Source: an uncultured Lachnospiraceae bacterium (GTDB taxonomy: Bacteria; Bacillota_A; Clostridia; Lachnospirales; Lachnospiraceae). From it: a stretch of DNA of 13,761 nt. This document shows, piece by piece, positions 952 to 8,770 of the stretch (the first letter of the stretch is position 1; each line of letters begins with the position of its first letter). The notes beneath the pieces are model-generated. The model made no database searches. It worked only from the letters and a program-made list of their open reading frames with translations, and was not told the DNA's origin. Where the stretch lies: NCBI GenBank assembly GCA_900553635.1, contig USDU01000050.1, forward strand, positions 1-13,761, given 5' to 3'. The translations under genes were made by a program, and so were the position numbers.

Positions 952-1866
952 ATGTACAAAGGAATCGAGGTTATCGGGATTGATCATGGCTGGTCGTATA
1001 TGAAGACGATTTCTCATGTGTTTGTGACAGGTGTGGAAGAGATAGCGACAGAACCGGCCTTTACGAAAAATCTGCTGGAATTCGGTGGAAAATTCTATAA
1101 GATAGGCGGCACCCGGCTTGAAGTCCAGGATGTAAAAACGAAGAATGATAATTTTTTCCTGCTGACGCTGGCGGCCATTGCTAAGGAGCTGAAAAGCAGG
1201 GGAAAAAGGGAAGCAAAGATTTATCTGGCAGTGGGGCTTCCACTTACACGTTTCGGGCAGGAGCGTGCAGATTTCATTCGATATCTGACAGCCAGAAGGT
1301 GTGTGAAGTACCAGTTTGAAAAAGAAGAGTACCGGATAGAGGTTTTGAATGCGTTCGTGTTTCCTCAGTGTTATGCGGCGGTTGCTGATAAGCTTAGCAC
1401 TTATAAGCGAAAGGTACTGGTGGTAGACATTGGAAGCTGGACGATTGATATGATGCCGGTAGTCGATGAAGAGCCGGACGAGCCCAGATGCTCTACGCTA
1501 CAGAGAGGGTTGATTACCTGTATGCGCTCCATTAATGAACAGTGTGTCCGGCAGTTGAATGGAGAGGTAGATGAAAGCGATATTCAGGCAGTGATGCGGA
1601 TGGAGCGTAGCGGGTTGAATGGAGATTATACCAGAATCATTGAAAATGAGGTTCGGACTTTCATGGGGCAGATTTATCATTCCATCCGGGAGCACGGCTA
1701 TAATCTTCAGACTACGCCGTTGATTTTCGTAGGAGGCGGGGCAGTCGTGATGAAAAATTATGGCCCGGCACAGCAGGGAAATGTAACCTACAATGTGGAT
1801 ATCAAGGCCAATGCAAGAGGATATGAATATCTCACCTATACGGCGCTTAAGCAGATGCGTAGATAA
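952..1866 (+). CDS. ParM-like actin-family ATPase (plasmid segregation type)
   Basis: The 304-residue protein has the actin/Hsp70 ATPase signature. The phosphate-1 loop is around residues 9-14 (GIDHGW), the phosphate-2 loop at 157-166 (VVDIGSWTID) and the adenosine loop at 261-268 (GGGAVVMK). These are the defining motifs of ParM/StbA and Alp-type proteins, which polymerise to push or pull DNA copies apart. The length fits the family (about 300-330). The ATG follows a purine-rich ribosome site (GGAGG at 936-940, AAGGAAGG next to the start). A ribbon-helix-helix gene starts 9 bp after its stop, the usual partner arrangement of a type II partition operon. In an ICE it would stabilise the excised circular form; that role is inferred. 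There is no membrane segment, so it should be cytoplasmic. Confidence 0.85.
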   Translation: MYKGIEVIGIDHGWSYMKTISHVFVTGVEEIATEPAFTKNLLEFGGKFYKIGGTRLEVQDVKTKNDNFFLLTLAAIAKELKSRGKREAKIYLAVGLPLTRFGQERADFIRYLTARRCVKYQFEKEEYRIEVLNAFVFPQCYAAVADKLSTYKRKVLVVDIGSWTIDMMPVVDEEPDEPRCSTLQRGLITCMRSINEQCVRQLNGEVDESDIQAVMRMERSGLNGDYTRIIENEVRTFMGQIYHSIREHGYNLQTTPLIFVGGGAVVMKNYGPAQQGNVTYNVDIKANARGYEYLTYTALKQMRR

Positions 1867-1875
1867 GGAGCGGAT

Positions 1876-2319
1876 ATGAGTTTATCGACAATTCGTAAAA
1901 TGACGCTCAGGCTCAATATGGAGGAGCCGAAGCAGGCCGAGATCTACCAGATACTGACCAGTCTGGACAAATATATTTATAAATCCCAGAATCAGTTTCT
2001 GGTAGACGCGCTGCAGTTCTACATTGAACATAGCGGAAAAGATATGTTGACCCAGCAGGAGCAGGCCGAACAGCAGCGATACATCACGGCAGAGGAACTG
2101 GAGCAGATAAAAAAGGAGCTGCGTGAAGAACTGCTGGAAGAGGCGAGGAGGGAACTGCTGAAGCTGCTGGGACAGTATGCGGCAGGTACACAGAACCCGA
2201 TAGCTGGTCAGAGAAAGGCAGTGACGGAGCAGACAGATGAAATGGAACTGGAAAATGATACAGAGGGAGAAAACTCTGTAGTAGGCAATCTGGCATGCAG
2301 ATGGATGGGAGAGATTTAA
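1876..2319 (+). CDS. ParR-like ribbon-helix-helix DNA-binding adaptor
   Basis: The protein has 147 residues. Residues about 6-52 look like a ribbon-helix-helix fold: a basic N-terminal strand (RKMTLRLNM) followed by two helices ending in QFLVDALQFYIEH. Residues about 68-107 are a highly charged helix likely to form a coiled coil (EELEQIKKELREELLEEARREL). The C-terminal 40 residues are acidic and look disordered. ParR proteins bind centromere repeats with the ribbon-helix-helix part and touch ParM with the C-terminal part. The position directly after the ParM-like gene, with AAGGAG at 1864-1869, supports that role. ParR sequences diverge widely, so the call rests on fold and context, not close similarity. 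Its target site could be the inverted repeats at 816-915 or the array at 6152-6334. Confidence 0.65.
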   Translation: MSLSTIRKMTLRLNMEEPKQAEIYQILTSLDKYIYKSQNQFLVDALQFYIEHSGKDMLTQQEQAEQQRYITAEELEQIKKELREELLEEARRELLKLLGQYAAGTQNPIAGQRKAVTEQTDEMELENDTEGENSVVGNLACRWMGEI

Positions 2320-2686: not shown

Positions 2687-2803
2687 GTGTGTAACGTAAA
2701 AGTACAGAAATCAGACCAGAGAAAGGAAAAGCCGGACAGGGTTCCGGGATATTGGAAGAGAAAACCAAAAAGGAAAGGGGATGAAAGATGGAGGCGAACC
2801 TAG
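2687..2803 (+). CDS. possible small, very basic peptide overlapping the next gene
   Basis: A frame from GTG 2687 to TAG 2801-2803 encodes 38 residues rich in Lys and Arg (for example DRVPGYWKRKPKRKGDERW). It overlaps the start of the first DUF5688 gene by 16 bp. The purine-rich AAAGAGAGAGG runs straight into the GTG without normal spacing, so initiation is doubtful. The stretch 2660-2787 is purine-rich on this strand, and such DNA yields Lys/Arg-rich frames by chance. It is listed as a low-confidence possibility; otherwise 2660-2787 is a plain untranslated leader. Confidence 0.2.
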   Translation: MCNVKVQKSDQRKEKPDRVPGYWKRKPKRKGDERWRRT

Positions 2804-3729
2804 AATTTTCAGATTTTTGTAGAAGCATACAAGAGGGGCTGGAACAGAAAAAAGAGCTTAAAAAATATCAGTTTACTATAGAGAATGGCGCGATTCTAAT
2901 TGCAAGGATAAGAAACGGACAGACAAGCAGTGCGGAAATGAAGCTGGATGATTCCTATGAACGGTATTGTAAATCAGGTGACTATGCAAGTGTATATGAG
3001 AGTCTTGAAAAATATCTGACAGAAATCGGAGCAAATTTGGATAAGTGCCTGGAGAGCAATCAGAAAGAGAAACTGATAAAGGAAAACTTGATTTTTAAGC
3101 TGGTCAATACACGTTATAACAGTGACTATTTGCAGGATGCTCCGCATAGAGAAATCGGCGATATGTCAGTGGTATATTGCTGGAAAATCTCGGACAAATT
3201 GTTTGGAAAACTTACAAATAACGTGATGGAAAAGCTGGGGTGGACAGAGGAGATGCTGTATGAGATGGCTTATAAGAATACAAGAGAAATGAATCCGCCT
3301 GTACTGGAAAGCATCTATGAAGCGATTGGCCCAACATGGGATACAAGCTATGAGAAAGAAATCAGAGCAAAAAGAATGCTGGTTCTTACGAATCAGAGTA
3401 AGGATTATGGAGCGGTCATGATGCTATATGATGATTTACTGCAAAGCGCGGCAAAACGTGCAGGAGAGGATATATATGTACTTCCATCGTCTGTGCATGA
3501 AGTAATTTTGATGCCGGTATCACTGACGAATGGTGTCATGGCGCAGTTGCGCTTACGTGAAGTAAATCGGAAAGAAGTAAAACCGAAAGACACGTTATCG
3601 TATACGGCATACAAATATGATGCGAAGGCTCATACTTTGAAACCAGTAGATTTCGGTGGTAGGAAACGAAAAAGTAAAAAAACGGAAAAGCAGCCTATAA
3701 ATTTAGATATTGCCGATAAGGTAAGATAG
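2788..3729 (+). CDS. DUF5688 family protein, copy 1
   Basis: This 313-residue soluble protein belongs to the DUF5688 family, found in clostridial mobile elements and genomes and of unknown biochemical function. Typical blocks are PHREIGDMSVVYCW (residues 119-132), GWTEEMLYEMAYKNT followed by NPP, and a C-terminal part with YDDLLQ, PSSVHEVIL and YDAKAHTLKP. It ends in a Lys/Arg-rich tail (GGRKRKSKKTEKQ). There is no signal peptide or membrane segment. The ATG has AAAGGGGAT upstream, with a competing ATG at 2781 that opens only a short frame. A second copy starts 8 bp after the stop, so both are made from one transcript. The gene is more AT-rich than the transfer genes downstream. A role in element maintenance or host interaction is possible but not shown. 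Confidence 0.8.
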   Translation: MEANLEFSDFCRSIQEGLEQKKELKKYQFTIENGAILIARIRNGQTSSAEMKLDDSYERYCKSGDYASVYESLEKYLTEIGANLDKCLESNQKEKLIKENLIFKLVNTRYNSDYLQDAPHREIGDMSVVYCWKISDKLFGKLTNNVMEKLGWTEEMLYEMAYKNTREMNPPVLESIYEAIGPTWDTSYEKEIRAKRMLVLTNQSKDYGAVMMLYDDLLQSAAKRAGEDIYVLPSSVHEVILMPVSLTNGVMAQLRLREVNRKEVKPKDTLSYTAYKYDAKAHTLKPVDFGGRKRKSKKTEKQPINLDIADKVR

Positions 3730-3737
3730 GAGGAAAA

Positions 3738-4697
3738 ATGGCAGGAAGAATGAATTTTGAAGAGTTTTGTAACCGTGTAGTACAGGAAATAAACCAGGAA
3801 AAAGCGCTGGGGGAGAGCGTTGCCAGTTATGAGGATAAAAAAATTCGTGTAACGGAAAGAAAAAATGGCCGCAGTGTGAGTACCGGACTGGAACCGAAAG
3901 GGTGTTATGACTGGTATGCTGCTACAGGAGATTTTACCAGGGTGTATGCTGATATCAAAGAAAATCTGCAGGCCGCAATGGAAGAGTTTCATGTGAAGAT
4001 GGGAGAGCTGAGAGTGGATAAAGAGTCCATTATGGAAAATCTGTATTTTCAGTTAGTAAATACGAAGAATACAGGGGAAATTCTGGATCACATGCCGCAT
4101 CGTGAAATGGGCGATATGTCGGTAGTCTACTGTTGGCATATTACAGATGAAATGGTTGGAAAAATCACGAATCAGGTAGCAAAAAGCTTTGGCTGGACAG
4201 AAGAAATGTTGTATCGGAGGGCCTATGAGAATACCCGGAAAGTGAATCCCCCGAGATTGGAAAGCATGGAGGATATATTGAAACGGCTGGGAGGTCCTGA
4301 GTTTGAAGTAGGACCGCTCTCGGTTCCAATGTATGTCCTCAGCAATCAGAAAAGCACGGCGGGAGCGGCAATGGTGTTGTATGACGATTTACTGCAGGAG
4401 GCAGCCAGAGAAATAGGTGGAGACCTGTGTGTTATTCCATCTTCAGTCCATGAAGTGATTTTAGCTCCTGGAGAGGGAGTGAATGTATTGGAATTACAGG
4501 AACTGATACGTGATATGAATAATAGGGTGGTAAGACCGGGTGATCTGTTATCAAATACTCCGTACATGTACGATGCCCAGGCGCATGAACTCAAACCTGC
4601 AGACGTACATCCGATAGAACGCACCAGCAGCCGGGAGGCCAGGGAACGGGACTATGAACCGGTATTTCAGCCCACTTATGCAGGCAGTGCCAGATAG
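3738..4697 (+). CDS. DUF5688 family protein, copy 2
   Basis: This 319-residue paralogue of the preceding gene shares its order of blocks: N-terminal NFEEFCNRVVQEI, PHREMGDMSVVYCW (residues 120-133), GWTEEMLYRRAYENTRKVNPP, LSNQKS, YDDLLQEAA, PSSVHEVIL and YDAQAHELKP. The N-terminal 90 residues and the C-terminal tail differ strongly from copy 1, and this copy lacks the Lys-rich tail. The ATG has an ideal site (TAGGAGGAAAA) overlapping the end of copy 1, so translation is probably coupled. The function is unknown. Two diverged copies side by side suggest duplication followed by specialisation, perhaps as partners in a heteromer. Confidence 0.82.
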   Translation: MAGRMNFEEFCNRVVQEINQEKALGESVASYEDKKIRVTERKNGRSVSTGLEPKGCYDWYAATGDFTRVYADIKENLQAAMEEFHVKMGELRVDKESIMENLYFQLVNTKNTGEILDHMPHREMGDMSVVYCWHITDEMVGKITNQVAKSFGWTEEMLYRRAYENTRKVNPPRLESMEDILKRLGGPEFEVGPLSVPMYVLSNQKSTAGAAMVLYDDLLQEAAREIGGDLCVIPSSVHEVILAPGEGVNVLELQELIRDMNNRVVRPGDLLSNTPYMYDAQAHELKPADVHPIERTSSREARERDYEPVFQPTYAGSAR

Positions 4698-4705
4698 GAG
4701 ACACT

Positions 4706-5215
4706 ATGGAGGAAGGATTTAAGCTGGAGCAGGTGGCTATACGTCTGGTTCCGGAAGCAGCCGTGTGGGATGCCGAGCCGATTCGAAGTCCGGAACGGGC
4801 AGTAGAAGTGTTGGGCAAATATATCCGGGATATGGATCGGGAAGCAGTCTGTGTAGTGAATTTCAATGCAAGGTTGCAGCCAATCAATTTTCAGATCGTC
4901 AGTATAGGAACCTTGGATCGGGCGCTATGTGAGCCCCGGGAGCTCCTAAAAGCAGGTATCCTGTCCAACGCAAGCTCCATGATGATCCTGCACAATCATC
5001 CGGCAGGAAGCATCGCGCCTTCTGGATGTGATATACAAATGACGGAAAGAATGGAAAAGGTGTGTGAATTGGTCGGAATCCCACTGATGGATAGTATCAT
5101 TGTCGGGTTTGGCCGGGAAGATTATTTCAGCTTTCGGGATGCTTCGATGCTGGTAGAGGAAAATCAGCAGATCGATAGAGCGGCTGAGGAAAGGAGCGGG
5201 AGAGCAGGAAGATGA
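4706..5215 (+). CDS. radC-like: RadC-like JAB/JAMM domain protein
   Basis: This 169-residue protein has a complete JAMM metal-binding motif: Glu46 (DREAVCV), His96-x-His98 (HNHPAG), Ser106 and Asp109, with the seven- and two-residue spacing of the family. This is the RadC/MPN+ zinc-metallohydrolase fold without the N-terminal helix-hairpin-helix region of chromosomal RadC. Such short forms are common on ICEs and plasmids, where their substrate is unknown. A role in DNA repair was proposed for RadC but is not well supported. The gene has AGGAGAC just before the ATG, 8 bp after the DUF5688 copy, and its stop overlaps the next start by 4 bp (ATGA, 5212-5215). The conserved active-site residues suggest a working enzyme, not a relic. 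Confidence 0.85.
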   Translation: MEEGFKLEQVAIRLVPEAAVWDAEPIRSPERAVEVLGKYIRDMDREAVCVVNFNARLQPINFQIVSIGTLDRALCEPRELLKAGILSNASSMMILHNHPAGSIAPSGCDIQMTERMEKVCELVGIPLMDSIIVGFGREDYFSFRDASMLVEENQQIDRAAEERSGRAGR

Positions 5216-6186
5216 GTGAAGCAGGCAGACGGTATACAGAGGAAGAACTTCGGATTGCGAAGAGTGTAGATTTGACGGCAGTGGCTCAGCGGCTGGGCTA
5301 TACGGTGGTACGGGTCGGATCTATGTACACCTTAAAAGAAATGGATTCCATCCGTATCTATAATCGCCGGAGCTGGTTCCGATGGTCAAGGGTTGCTGAA
5401 AAGGGCAGTAACGGAGGAACCCAGATTGATTTCCTGCGGGTGTTTGGTGGTATGACGGTCAAGGACGCAGTGTTCTGGCTTCTGGATTTTGCAGGATATC
5501 GGCGATTGGACGAGAAAGGGTTACAGTCACTCAAATATCAGGTGAAGGAAGAACAAGCGAAGAAGAAACCGTTTTGTCTGCCAGAGCCAGCGACAGATCA
5601 TAGGGAGGTTTACCGGTATCTAGGAGAAGAACGAAGCATCGACAGGGATGTGATTGACTTCTTTATCCGTCAGGACTTGATATATGCTTCCAAAAGATAC
5701 GGGGATGTGGTGTTCAAGGGAAATGACCGGAATGGGGTTACCCATTTTGCCAGCCTGCGTGGGCCGGATATCAAGTGGGATGTGGCCGGAAATAATAAGC
5801 ATTACGGCTTTAACTGCTGGAATGATGACAGTACAGAATTGGAGGTATTTGAGGGCGCAATAGATTTGTTGAGTTTCACGGAGCTGACACAGGACTATGA
5901 GACGAACAAGCTGGCGCTTGGAATGCTGGCAGACGCACCTTTGGAGACTTTTTTGGCAGAGCACCCACAGATCCGAAGCATAGCCTTCTGCCTGGATAAT
6001 GACCAGCCGGGAAGAGAGGCGACGGAGAGGCTGATGCGGAAGTATTACGAGAGAGGGTATGAAGTAGAGGACGCACCGCCGCCGTCAGCCTATAAGGATT
6101 ATAACGAGTGTCTGGCAGACTTGAAGAGACAGATGTTGCAGGAACGTGATTTGACGGCAAAAAGTGCTGGCAAAATGAAAAAATGA
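5212..6186 (+). CDS. DUF3991/TOPRIM domain protein (primase-like)
   Basis: The protein has 324 residues. Residues about 10-100 form the DUF3991-type N-terminal region (AVAQRLGYTVVR, a basic RIYNRRSWFRWSR patch, GGTQIDFLRVFGGM). Residues about 205-300 form a TOPRIM domain with the catalytic Glu214 (EVFEGAIDLL) and the Asp262-x-Asp264 pair (CLDNDQPG). TOPRIM domains cut or join nucleic acid phosphodiesters or make primers. This subgroup lacks the CHC2 zinc finger of DnaG and is typical of conjugative elements, probably helping replicate or process single-stranded element DNA. It is translationally coupled to the RadC-like gene through ATGA. The last residues (DLTAKSAGKMKK) are encoded by the first unit of the repeat array, and the TGA stop is part of a TGACGGCA box, so the array has either invaded or grown from this gene's 3' end. 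Confidence 0.8.
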   Translation: MSEAGRRYTEEELRIAKSVDLTAVAQRLGYTVVRVGSMYTLKEMDSIRIYNRRSWFRWSRVAEKGSNGGTQIDFLRVFGGMTVKDAVFWLLDFAGYRRLDEKGLQSLKYQVKEEQAKKKPFCLPEPATDHREVYRYLGEERSIDRDVIDFFIRQDLIYASKRYGDVVFKGNDRNGVTHFASLRGPDIKWDVAGNNKHYGFNCWNDDSTELEVFEGAIDLLSFTELTQDYETNKLALGMLADAPLETFLAEHPQIRSIAFCLDNDQPGREATERLMRKYYERGYEVEDAPPPSAYKDYNECLADLKRQMLQERDLTAKSAGKMKK

Positions 6187-6334
6187 CGGCAAAAGATGAC
6201 GGCAAAGCCGGAAAAGTGACGGCAAAAAGTGACGGCACAGAGGAAAAGTGACGGCAAAAAATGCCGTCAAAACGAAAAAATGACGGCAAAAGATGACGGC
6301 AAAGTAAGAAAATGACGGCAAAAAGTGCCGTCAT
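6152..6334. repeat. ordered iteron-like array: six 32-33 bp units with paired TGACGGCA boxes
   Basis: TGACGGCA boxes begin at 6152, 6184, 6197, 6217, 6230, 6249, 6281, 6294 and 6313. Inverted boxes (TGCCGTCA) begin at 6262 and 6326, and a degenerate one (TGCTGGCA) at 6165. They form six pairs starting at 6152, 6184, 6217, 6249, 6281 and 6313. Within every pair the offset is exactly 13 bp, with a 5-base spacer of A and G only. Between pairs the period is 32 or 33 bp, with spacers that mostly contain A-runs. Units 4 and 6 have an inverted second box and form perfect 8- and 9-bp hairpins. A 31-bp sequence (6177-6207) recurs exactly at 6274-6304. The 32-bp period is about three helical turns, so all pairs lie on one face of the DNA. 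This is typical of protein-binding iterons at replication origins or centromeres. Which protein binds is unknown. Confidence 0.85.
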
Positions 6335-6352: not shown

Positions 6353-6414
6353 TTAGGGGATTTTCCCCTAACCAGAGGCATTTGGACGGTGACGTCACAA
6401 ATGCGTATCTGGCA
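6353..6414 (+). other. oriT: candidate origin of transfer (oriT)
   Basis: A strong hairpin TTAGGGGATTTTCCCCTAA (6353-6371) is followed by an imperfectly nested structure. The inverted repeat GCATTTG (6378-6384) and CAAATGC (6398-6404) encloses most of the 10-bp palindrome GTGACGTCAC (6389-6398). Just after the right arm comes GTATCTGGCA (6405-6414), which resembles the IncP/MOBP nick region (TATCCTG/C) and lies at similar spacing from the inverted repeat, about 7 bp. The site is just upstream of mobC and a MOBP-type relaxase gene, where oriT is expected. No T-run follows the hairpins, so they are not terminators. The exact nick position is inference. Confidence 0.6.
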
Positions 6415-6509: not shown

Positions 6510-6977
6510 ATGACGGTCCACCAAAGCTATTCGGCAGTTTTCAAAAAGGATGCGGCGGCTGTGCTGTTCTATGTAGAGCAGATGCAGTACGAGATTGGCA
6601 GTCGGGACGGGGAACTTGTACGGCGGAAAATTGGAAAAGAGGAAGTAGAGTCATACCGGTATGAGGATTTGATTGATGATGTAGATATCTGGATTTTTGG
6701 AAAAATATTGGAATTGAATGGGCTTCGAGATGATTGTCGTAATGACATTGAGCGGGCTGTCCATGAAAGTGAATATCAGAAGCTGAAGGAGGATGAGCGG
6801 CGTGTCGGAAAACTGTACGAGAAGACTTGTTACGGGAAGGCAGTAGATGTCTTAGCGGAGCGGTTGGCAGAAAAACTGTTTGATAATATCCTGAAGGGCA
6901 AGTATAAGCAGGAAATTCAGGATATAGCAGAGAAAATCTGCAGTTTTGCGGAAGAGGAAAAGAAGTATGGCCGCTAA
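6510..6977 (+). CDS. unidentified helical protein between oriT and mobC
   Basis: From the first ATG the product is 155 residues. It is charged, mostly helical and without membrane segments (QSYSAVFKKDAAAVLFYVEQM, ERAVHESEYQKLKEDERRVGKLYEKTC, LFDNILKGKYKQEIQDIAEKI). No family is recognised. The ATG at 6510 has no ribosome site, but the frame stays open back to 6453. An AGGGAGG (6441-6447) lies 8 bases before ACG at 6456, which would give 18 more residues beginning with EETKVEWIKNADDFLDW. The natural start may therefore be ACG, or an ATG lost by one base change; the ATG is used here because ACG is rarely used. The stop overlaps mobC by 11 bp, so it is part of the mobilization operon and may be an accessory relaxosome protein. 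Confidence 0.65.
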   Translation: MTVHQSYSAVFKKDAAAVLFYVEQMQYEIGSRDGELVRRKIGKEEVESYRYEDLIDDVDIWIFGKILELNGLRDDCRNDIERAVHESEYQKLKEDERRVGKLYEKTCYGKAVDVLAERLAEKLFDNILKGKYKQEIQDIAEKICSFAEEEKKYGR

Positions 6978-7293
6978 ATGGGTGCGGAAAACCGTACGAT
7001 TAACGGAGATGGAAGCGAGGCTTTTGGCAGAAAGAGCTGCCGAGAGCGGGTTACCGGAAAATCAGTACATTCGTTTCCAGATACGGCAAAGACCGTCAGA
7101 TTATCCGGCGGTGCAAAAATTGTTAAAAGAGCTGATCAATGAGATAAACCGGATAGGGAACAATATCAACCAGATTGTTCACGGAAATCACATGGATTTT
7201 TATACAGAAGCAGACAAAGAACAGCTTTCGGCTTATATGAGGCGGCTGAATCTGTCCATGCGTGAGGTGATAGAGAAAATTGGCAATCAGTAA
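6967..7293 (+). CDS. mobC: MobC-like relaxosome accessory protein
   Basis: This 108-residue protein has a ribbon-helix-helix-like N-terminus (VRKTVRLTEMEARLLAERAAESGLPENQYIRFQI). It is followed by the block typical of MobC proteins (LLKELINEINRIGNNINQIVHG). MobC binds oriT near the nick site, helps open the strands and recruits the relaxase. ATG 6967 is preferred over a TTG at 6946 because GAGG (6954-6957) is well spaced to it and MAAKWVRKTVRL matches family N-termini. It overlaps both neighbours: 11 bp with the upstream gene and 14 bp with the relaxase. The candidate oriT is about 550 bp upstream. Confidence 0.85.
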   Translation: MAAKWVRKTVRLTEMEARLLAERAAESGLPENQYIRFQIRQRPSDYPAVQKLLKELINEINRIGNNINQIVHGNHMDFYTEADKEQLSAYMRRLNLSMREVIEKIGNQ

Positions 7294-8770
7294 AATTACC
7301 TGTATGAAAGATTGCGGAAAGAGTTATCACGGAAAACATTTGAGGGCAGCTCTTGCATATATCACAGTCCCGGAAAAGACACAGCAAGGGAGGCTGGTGG
7401 CAGGTATAAATTGCGTACCGGAATTTGCTTTTGAGCAGATGAAGGAGACAAAACGGAAATACGGGAAGTTAGACAAGCGGCAGGGATATCATTTGGTCTT
7501 ATCCTTCAAAGAAAATGAGGTCACCCCGGACACCGCCATGGAATTAACTTCCCGCTTCGTAAAGGAATACCTCGGCAGCGAATACGAGGCCGTCTACGCC
7601 GTCCACGACAACACCCGGCATATCCACGCCCATATCGTATTCAACAGTGTGAGCTTCCTAACCGGGAAAAAGTACCGCTATGAAAAAGGTGACTGGGCCA
7701 GGGAGATACAGCCTATCACCAACCGACTCTGTCAAGAGTATGGTCTGTCCACAATCGAAATTGAGGACGATAAGCTGAATCAGGATGTGGAATACCGGGA
7801 AACCCGGAAAGAGCAGGCAATTCAGCATGTCTGGAATTCGGCTATCCGGCGGGATCTGGATGCTTGTATCATTCTGTCGGCCACGTATGAGGAGTTTCAG
7901 CAGAAGCTTACAGAACGGGGCTATGAGTGTAAAGAAAGCAAGTATCTGGCTATCCGTCCGCCGGGCATGAAGCGGTTCCGCAGGACGCAGCGACTGGGAG
8001 AAGATTATACGATAGAACGGATACAGGAGAGAATTGAGACCGAAACTTTGCGGTCAGCCGCTAAGGCAGGCCTGGGTCGTGCCCCGCGGATCGTGGGCGG
8101 CAGTGTCCGTAGACACCAGAGGGCGAAACTGACGGGTCTGCAGAAGCGGTACTTTGCCCGCCTGTACAGGACCGGCAAGCTGAAAAGGCGGCCATACAGT
8201 CAGGCGTGGAGATACCGGGATGATATCCGGAAAATGAAAAAACTCCAGAATCAATATCTATTTTTGGCCAGAGAGGACATCACGACGGTTCCGGAGCTTC
8301 AGAATGCCGTACAGACTCTGACTGCCAGACAAAAGGAAGCGGCCAGGGAGAAAAGCCGTCTGGGAAAACAGAAACACCGTTTTCAGGAACTGTTTGAATT
8401 GGCGGCAAAGATGGAGGAGCTGGAAGCAGCGTTTCATTCCTATGAGCGTGGCGATTCCTTTTTTACGGAAGAGCATCAGGATTATGAGGCGCGCCAGAAG
8501 GACTTGGCGGAAAAGGGATATACCTACGAGGAAATCTGCGCGGTCAGGGAGCGGATTACCCGGGAGTATGCGGAAGCGACTTCCCGGGAACGGCAGCTCT
8601 ACAGGGAACTGAAAACCGGAAAAGGACTGTTAAAAGAAATGGAAACAGAGGATAAAACACAGAGACAGACAAAGGGGGAAATAGATGGAACAGAACGAAG
8701 AGAAGAGCAGGAAACTCAGCGCCAGGGAGATCGAGGCGTATCTGCAGAAAATGAAAAAATCACATTATAG
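7280..8770 (+). CDS. relaxase (MOBP-type mobilization nuclease)
   Basis: This 496-residue relaxase nicks oriT, binds covalently to the 5' end and leads the strand into the recipient. The metal-binding motif is HDNTRHIHAHIVFN, with His109, His114, His116 and His118. The probable catalytic Tyr is Tyr27 (AALAYITVPEKT). The first 150 residues are the catalytic domain. The rest is basic (about 220-320) and then long charged helices (about 330-470), a likely coiled coil for contacts with MobC or the coupling protein. The start is a TTG at 7280 inside mobC; it gives the family's MAISKI beginning, while the next ATG would cut into the domain. The gene overlaps the next one by 86 bp. Codons at about 7511-7690 favour C in third position far more than the rest, a possible recombination patch. 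Confidence 0.9.
   Translation: MAISKITCMKDCGKSYHGKHLRAALAYITVPEKTQQGRLVAGINCVPEFAFEQMKETKRKYGKLDKRQGYHLVLSFKENEVTPDTAMELTSRFVKEYLGSEYEAVYAVHDNTRHIHAHIVFNSVSFLTGKKYRYEKGDWAREIQPITNRLCQEYGLSTIEIEDDKLNQDVEYRETRKEQAIQHVWNSAIRRDLDACIILSATYEEFQQKLTERGYECKESKYLAIRPPGMKRFRRTQRLGEDYTIERIQERIETETLRSAAKAGLGRAPRIVGGSVRRHQRAKLTGLQKRYFARLYRTGKLKRRPYSQAWRYRDDIRKMKKLQNQYLFLAREDITTVPELQNAVQTLTARQKEAAREKSRLGKQKHRFQELFELAAKMEELEAAFHSYERGDSFFTEEHQDYEARQKDLAEKGYTYEEICAVRERITREYAEATSRERQLYRELKTGKGLLKEMETEDKTQRQTKGEIDGTERREEQETQRQGDRGVSAENEKITL

Follow-up and report, generated by a model that had tools for sequence, protein, structure and literature searches.

The accessible sections of published accounts describe several partition systems that resemble the locus reported here. 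The ParMRC systems of the pCW3-like plasmids of Clostridium perfringens are composed of an actin-like ParM, a small DNA-binding ParR and a repeat-array centromere (parC) located upstream of parM (PMC9426499). About ten ParMRC families with different parC repeats are distinguished in these plasmids, and ParR binds the parC of its own family only; ParR_B binds two 8-bp repeats lying 3 bp apart, an offset of 11 bp (PMC9426499). R1 also contains a ParMRC with an actin-like ParM and a ParR; its parC consists of 11-bp repeats (PMC9426499), and its partition proteins have been linked to the relaxase (PMC4949242). The srpMRC system of the SXT/R391 ICEs, whose host group is Gammaproteobacterial, includes an actin-like SrpM and a small SrpR without homology to known ParR, and srpC is located immediately upstream of srpM (PMC4489591). 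In R388, the stbDRs (two sets of five 9-bp repeats with 2 nt spacing) are positioned around the stb promoter near oriT, and the StbA protein bound there affects both stability and transfer; the system is described without an actin-like motor (PMC3098194).

The window analysed here (the whole stretch of DNA, 13,761 bases) belongs to an ICE with comparable components. These are an actin-like protein (ALP; 952..1866), which matches Pfam ALP_N with 44.7 bits (cutoff 26.3) and, weakly, ALP12 in the PDB (E 0.0017), a ParR-like protein of 147 aa (1876..2319) and a six-unit paired-box array (6152..6333), all on the forward strand, as are the array units, the TOPRIM, MobC and relaxase genes and the oriT-like stretch described below. 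Comparison of related elements indicates that the ICE probably has a ParMRC-like system of actin type (type II-like), in which the array serves as a parC-like centromere and is bound and read by the ParR-like protein. Unlike the parC of the pCW3-like plasmids, the array is carried by an ICE, lies kilobases from the parMR genes and beside oriT, and is built of 32-bp units, each a 13-bp pair in inverted or direct orientation; the 11-bp repeats of R1 parC differ likewise from these paired boxes placed away from the par genes. The ICE resembles SXT/R391 in having an actin-like protein and a small partner which, like SrpR, shows no convincing similarity to known ParR, but srpC adjoins srpM, and the accessible sections of the srpMRC account mention no lineage-wise switching of repeats of the kind seen here (PMC4489591). 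The stbDRs of R388 share with the array a place near oriT. No earlier description of this array was found in the open-licence literature searched.

A segment of 183 bp holds 11 exact copies of the 8-letter box TGACGGCA, and a single further exact copy is present in the rest of the window. When one mismatch or fewer was allowed, 23 box matches were found in the window, compared with a mean of 9.21 and a maximum of 18 in dinucleotide shuffles (0 of 200 shuffles reached 23). The boxes start at positions 6152, 6165, 6184, 6197, 6217, 6230, 6249, 6262, 6281, 6294, 6313 and 6326, and the box at 6165 is degenerate (TGCTGGCA). They form six pairs with an inner offset of 13 bp in each and unit-start spacings of 32, 33, 32, 32 and 32 bp, which bears out the geometry given in the first-pass annotation. 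Unit 1 (6152..6172) is composed of a box at 6152-6159 and the degenerate second box at 6165-6172, and shares sequence with the 3' end of the TOPRIM gene, whose ORF reaches 6186. The second box is direct in unit 2 (6184..6204; boxes 6184-6191 and 6197-6204), unit 3 (6217..6237; 6217-6224 and 6230-6237) and unit 5 (6281..6301; 6281-6288 and 6294-6301), and inverted in unit 4 (6249..6269; 6249-6256 and 6262-6269) and unit 6 (6313..6333; 6313-6320 and 6326-6333), the final box ending at 6333. These orientations, including the degenerate box of unit 1, agree with the same annotation, and the geometry would suit the dimeric or cooperative binder that it proposed. A reading of the array as an RNA or hairpin element is disfavoured because the direct-repeat classes of array form no such hairpins and Rfam gave no match at the array at gathering thresholds.

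The array is situated between a gene encoding a DUF3991/TOPRIM protein (5212..6186; Pfam) and an oriT-like stretch read from the sequence (6353..6413). This stretch contains a hairpin (6353-6371), an inverted repeat (6378-6384/6398-6404) and a nic-like GTATCTGGC (6405-6413), which we take to resemble the IncP nic; this likeness and its place beside the mobC-relaxase genes suggest a putative oriT. The downstream genes encode a MobC/NikA-like protein (6946..7293) and a MobA/VirD2-type relaxase (7280..8770), both identified by Pfam, and the element also encodes DUF3801 and a CD1115-family VirD4. The gene orf155 (155 aa, 6510-6977), which has no Pfam or NCBIfam match, is found between the oriT-like stretch and mobC. 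The ALP and ParR-like genes lie about 4 kb upstream of the array. A Clostridiales-3 sRNA (RF02942) is present at 684-920, with 32 bp separating it from the actin-like gene downstream, and was also detected upstream of this gene in two of seven relatives scanned (L044, 3288-3553; L072, 5975-6230).

Related loci were collected by a TOPRIM-alignment scan of genome contigs, in which 107 were found and 80 kept; the window and two plasmid loci brought the comparison to 83. Lachnospiraceae-type ICE relatives carry an array in the same slot, from the DUF3991/TOPRIM gene to oriT, with the same helical phasing and different box sequences. The box score of the stretch 3' of TOPRIM exceeded the highest of five shuffles in every locus of the 83 except L074; the score of L025 was marginal (3.2 versus 2.8), with one clear unit only. 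Lineage-specific boxes include TGGGGGCA, GTCAACTG, TGATAGCA, TGGCTACA, GTGGCTCC, GGTGTAG and others. Addition of 15 new loci gave 98 stretches (including L025; 57 non-redundant), which form 34 box clusters at a cosine of at least 0.4 (28 at 0.3 and 38 at 0.5). Same-strand repeat distances in the 57 non-redundant stretches are most often 32, 128, 64 and 96 bp, the period strength at 10.7 bp is 0.67 against a shuffle maximum of 0.15, and the modal distance within 20-80 bp is 31-33 bp in 39 of them. Three units, a blank unit and three further units form a common layout (e.g., L006 and L035), and the window has six units with no blank. Inner pairs of 13 bp, inverted or direct, occur in many lineages. 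The GGTGTAG group has direct pairs of 11 bp and a ParR strand of another kind, in which RFS replaces RLN or RMN.

At E <=1e-60, a sample of 397 genomes of one family gave TOPRIM relatives in 25; at E <=1e-80, two genera gave them in 13 of 29 and 2 of 28 genomes. The distant TOPRIM relatives L139 and L140 have no array within about 400 bp 3' of the gene. The motif GTATCT[AGT]GC was found downstream of the array in 77 of the 83 loci; among the other six, a closely similar variant is present in L044, L057 and L060, L061 groups with L060, and two loci, L025 and L028, are disrupted. Relatives of DUF5688, which is encoded by two tandem genes at 2788-4697 of the window, occur upstream of RadC/TOPRIM in 79 of the 83 loci. 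A pattern scan of viral contigs yielded three loci, two of which (L001 and L002) look like isolated matches within unrelated sequence.

A textbook parC sits at the par promoter, and a place upstream of parM is usual, not universal. The array differs from it in position: in the window it follows parR at a distance of about 4 kb, away from the par promoter, and in the relatives it is about 2.8 to 17 kb from parR. When each locus was scanned with a matrix derived from its own array, no outside site equalled or exceeded the sixth-best inside site in 80 of 83 loci, the exceptions being L025 (no real array), L028 (array trimmed in the analysis) and L074 (degenerate array). There is therefore no copy of the array, or box cluster, at the par promoter upstream of ALP in the stretches scanned, the window included. 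This result bears on the idea that the array is an operator by which the ParR-like protein or another regulator controls the downstream orf155-mobC-relaxase genes. Autoregulation is frequent among ParR-type proteins and the array does lie upstream of these genes, but with nothing equivalent at the par promoter, and with a length of about 180 to 300 bp and at least six phased units in most loci, which is large for an operator, such a role is improbable.

A ParR-like homologue was detected by HMM in 58 of the 83 loci (73 with the new set) and is next to ALP wherever the stretch compared contains both. The 25 loci in which ParR was not found (mostly contig ends; L018 among them) and pairs of intermediate box similarity were left out of the comparison of pairs; a further 12 kb of the contig of L053 (L118) contained no ParR. 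At a TOPRIM identity of at least 0.75, with 62 of 73 loci remaining after removal of near-identical ones, 71 same-box and 31 different-box pairs were available. The AUC for separating these two groups was 0.975 for the 8-residue N-terminal strand of ParR and 0.947 for the whole ParR, compared with 0.733 for RadC, 0.721 for orf155, 0.675 for DUF5688, 0.674 for TOPRIM, 0.626 for ALP, 0.591 for the relaxase and 0.553 for MobC; a non-ParR protein equalled the ParR strand in 0.02 of bootstraps or fewer. In similar elements, a change of box is accompanied by a change of the ParR-like protein and much less by changes of MobC, relaxase, TOPRIM or actin. At a TOPRIM identity of at least 0.70, every protein reached an AUC of at least 0.84 save DUF5688 (0.705), and at 0.85 or more TOPRIM itself gave 0.910 versus 0.954 for the strand. 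Held-out pairs, scored by Jaccard, were less sharp for ParR (strand 0.923, ALP 0.835, orf155 0.812, MobC 0.777), the relaxase value of 1.000 resting on one same-box pair; a prediction set beforehand, that MobC and relaxase would be near 0.5 in these pairs, failed. Box similarity was measured by a count-based Jaccard index at first and by cosine after the held-out result was known, because by Jaccard the array of L121, which is interrupted, counted as different.

The two ends of the ParR-like protein behave differently in 295 pairs with a TOPRIM identity of at least 0.7. The N-terminal strand tracks the box (partial 0.43 given ALP, versus 0.26 with ALP given the box), whereas the last 16 residues track ALP (0.45 given the box, versus 0.26 with the box given ALP), as expected for an adaptor linking centromere and filament.

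A MobC or relaxosome binding site at oriT would be expected to change with MobC or the relaxase, and the first-pass annotation had offered a relaxosome platform next to oriT as one option. A platform read by MobC, TOPRIM or orf155 would suit the neighbourhood, MobC being RHH-like and TOPRIM primase-like. However, the AUC values of MobC and relaxase are the lowest obtained at a TOPRIM identity of at least 0.75, and MobC and the box change independently: MobC changes with box and ParR strand kept in L069/L063, L038/L022 (in which the oriT arms differ as well) and L050/L066, and the boxes change with MobC kept in L050/L069 and L066/L070. TOPRIM is 95-96% identical between L029 and both L032 and L027 despite their different boxes, and in eight array-bearing loci MobC starts 0.3-0.4 kb past TOPRIM, which leaves no space for orf155. 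This option is accordingly very doubtful.

The loci L029 and L032 represent a natural exchange of both parts. They are 96.6% identical over 16,701 aligned columns, and 14 of 333 100-bp segments fall below 0.88 identity, every one of them in parR or in the array, two places 10 kb apart. Identity is 68.9% in parR, 67.0% in the array and 97.96% in the remaining 15,880 columns. The two ParR proteins do not differ in their final 24 residues, and in the part compared ALP shows 97% identity. To the left of the actin gene, identity is 92-100% as far as a chromosomal gene (putatively lysS-like, by reading) that is itself only about 59-73% identical; the pair therefore represents the same element, occupying the corresponding site in two distinct hosts. 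Over these 16.7 kb and the left end, a comparison that extends to about +5.7 kb on the right, parR is the only gene that diverges with the boxes. The phased repeats beside a primase-like gene resemble iterons, and a Rep protein might read them as an origin from which the excised element replicates, but no other gene diverges with the boxes within the limits of this comparison, and to that extent an origin seems very unlikely. Because box changes go with ParR changes and both were exchanged together in L029/L032, the array is best read as a probable parC-like centromere that is separate from the par genes and adjacent to oriT. Among the options of the first-pass annotation, a centromere for the ParR-like protein encoded at 1876 is thus the one favoured by the relatives.

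Further joint switches of box and ParR were found in L050/L069, L008/L021 and L147/L077. The pair L036/L037 is a counterexample, in which array, TOPRIM, MobC and relaxase are identical and ALP and ParR differ (ParR 44% identical); it may stem from a module swap of recent date or from mis-assembly of a MAG. In L074/L075, ParR is nearly the same and array similarity is low because the L074 array is degenerate. None of 17 same-genome element pairs had a box similarity of at least 0.5 (highest 0.49, L050/L056), a result that bears on incompatibility and is not significant, because the background is 5.5% and the chance expectation 0.38.

Searches of Pfam, NCBIfam and PDB sequences gave nothing convincing for the ParR-like protein of the window. 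Its predicted model (pLDDT 79.8) contains an extended N-terminus, helices at 18-28 and 38-53, a long helix at 72-102 and a C-terminal helix, residues 110-131 being of low confidence. The sole sensible PDB match of this model in Foldseek is the ParR of pB171, and it is weak; a second model (L088) had no PDB match at E <=10, the further rows being spliceosome and ribosome helices. The N-terminal strand is identical in 87 of 92 close homologues among the matches listed (best 120 of 417).

In the proposed mechanism, the ParR-like protein would grip the boxes through its N-terminal strand in the manner of a ribbon-helix-helix protein, and the unit spacing of about three helical turns would load several dimers onto one face of the DNA. 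The C-terminal tail would join this complex to a filament of the actin-like protein encoded just upstream, which would segregate or position the excised circular element, and the specificities of box and ParR would shift together between lineages. An actin-like ATPase gene is present, a small adaptor gene adjoins it, and co-variation and co-exchange connect the repeats to the adaptor, L036/L037 apart. The system would work like ParMRC; its membership of that class is incomplete, since the site lies away from the par promoter and both fold and function are predicted ones.

Since the array lies beside oriT and away from the par promoter, the complex of ParR-like protein and array may in addition deliver oriT to the transfer machinery. 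A related explanation is that the ParR-like protein reads the array chiefly for conjugation, at oriT recruiting or restraining the T4SS, the coupling protein and the relaxosome, and only secondarily for segregation. It would agree with the oriT-like motif next to the array in most loci, with the stimulation of the TraI relaxase by R1 ParM and ParR (PMC4949242) and with the effect of StbA on R388 transfer as well as stability (PMC3098194). In SXT/R391, however, deletion of srpM or srpR cut transfer only 4- to 14-fold (PMC4489591). Sequence alone cannot tell transfer from segregation, and we regard a chiefly conjugative role as unlikely, though deserving some weight.

The centromere reading can be extended, somewhat short of an even chance, to many gut ICEs. 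The box sequence of their detached, oriT-adjacent centromere and its cognate ParR-like adaptor may often have been switched together while the rest of the element stayed constant, which would give rise to incompatibility types, and the shared complex may link the actin-driven positioning of an excised ICE with the loading of its oriT into the conjugation machinery. A testable candidate centromere is now available for the actin-like genes of these elements, and nature supplies specificity experiments in the swap pairs L029/L032 and L147/L077. From the roughly three dozen box types and the adaptors linked to them, it could be possible to derive the recognition code of a ParR-like family, one unnamed in the libraries used. 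A physical coupling of partition and conjugation at oriT, and the way in which similar ICEs share one cell, also become testable.

Two optrA-bearing plasmids of Enterococcus and Lactococcus (L004 and L005) carry a piece of a related ICE with TOPRIM and a TGATAGCA-type array. The actin gene was not found in two records of these plasmids, a search without a positive control that shows little. L004 additionally contains an oriT-like stretch, mobC and a relaxase gene. The strand type of MobC (RKTLRL, KPFRMT, KLLRMT or KHFRLT), judged by eye, seems tied to the arms of the oriT inverted repeat and not to the array, at 6378-6413 of the window and in relatives.
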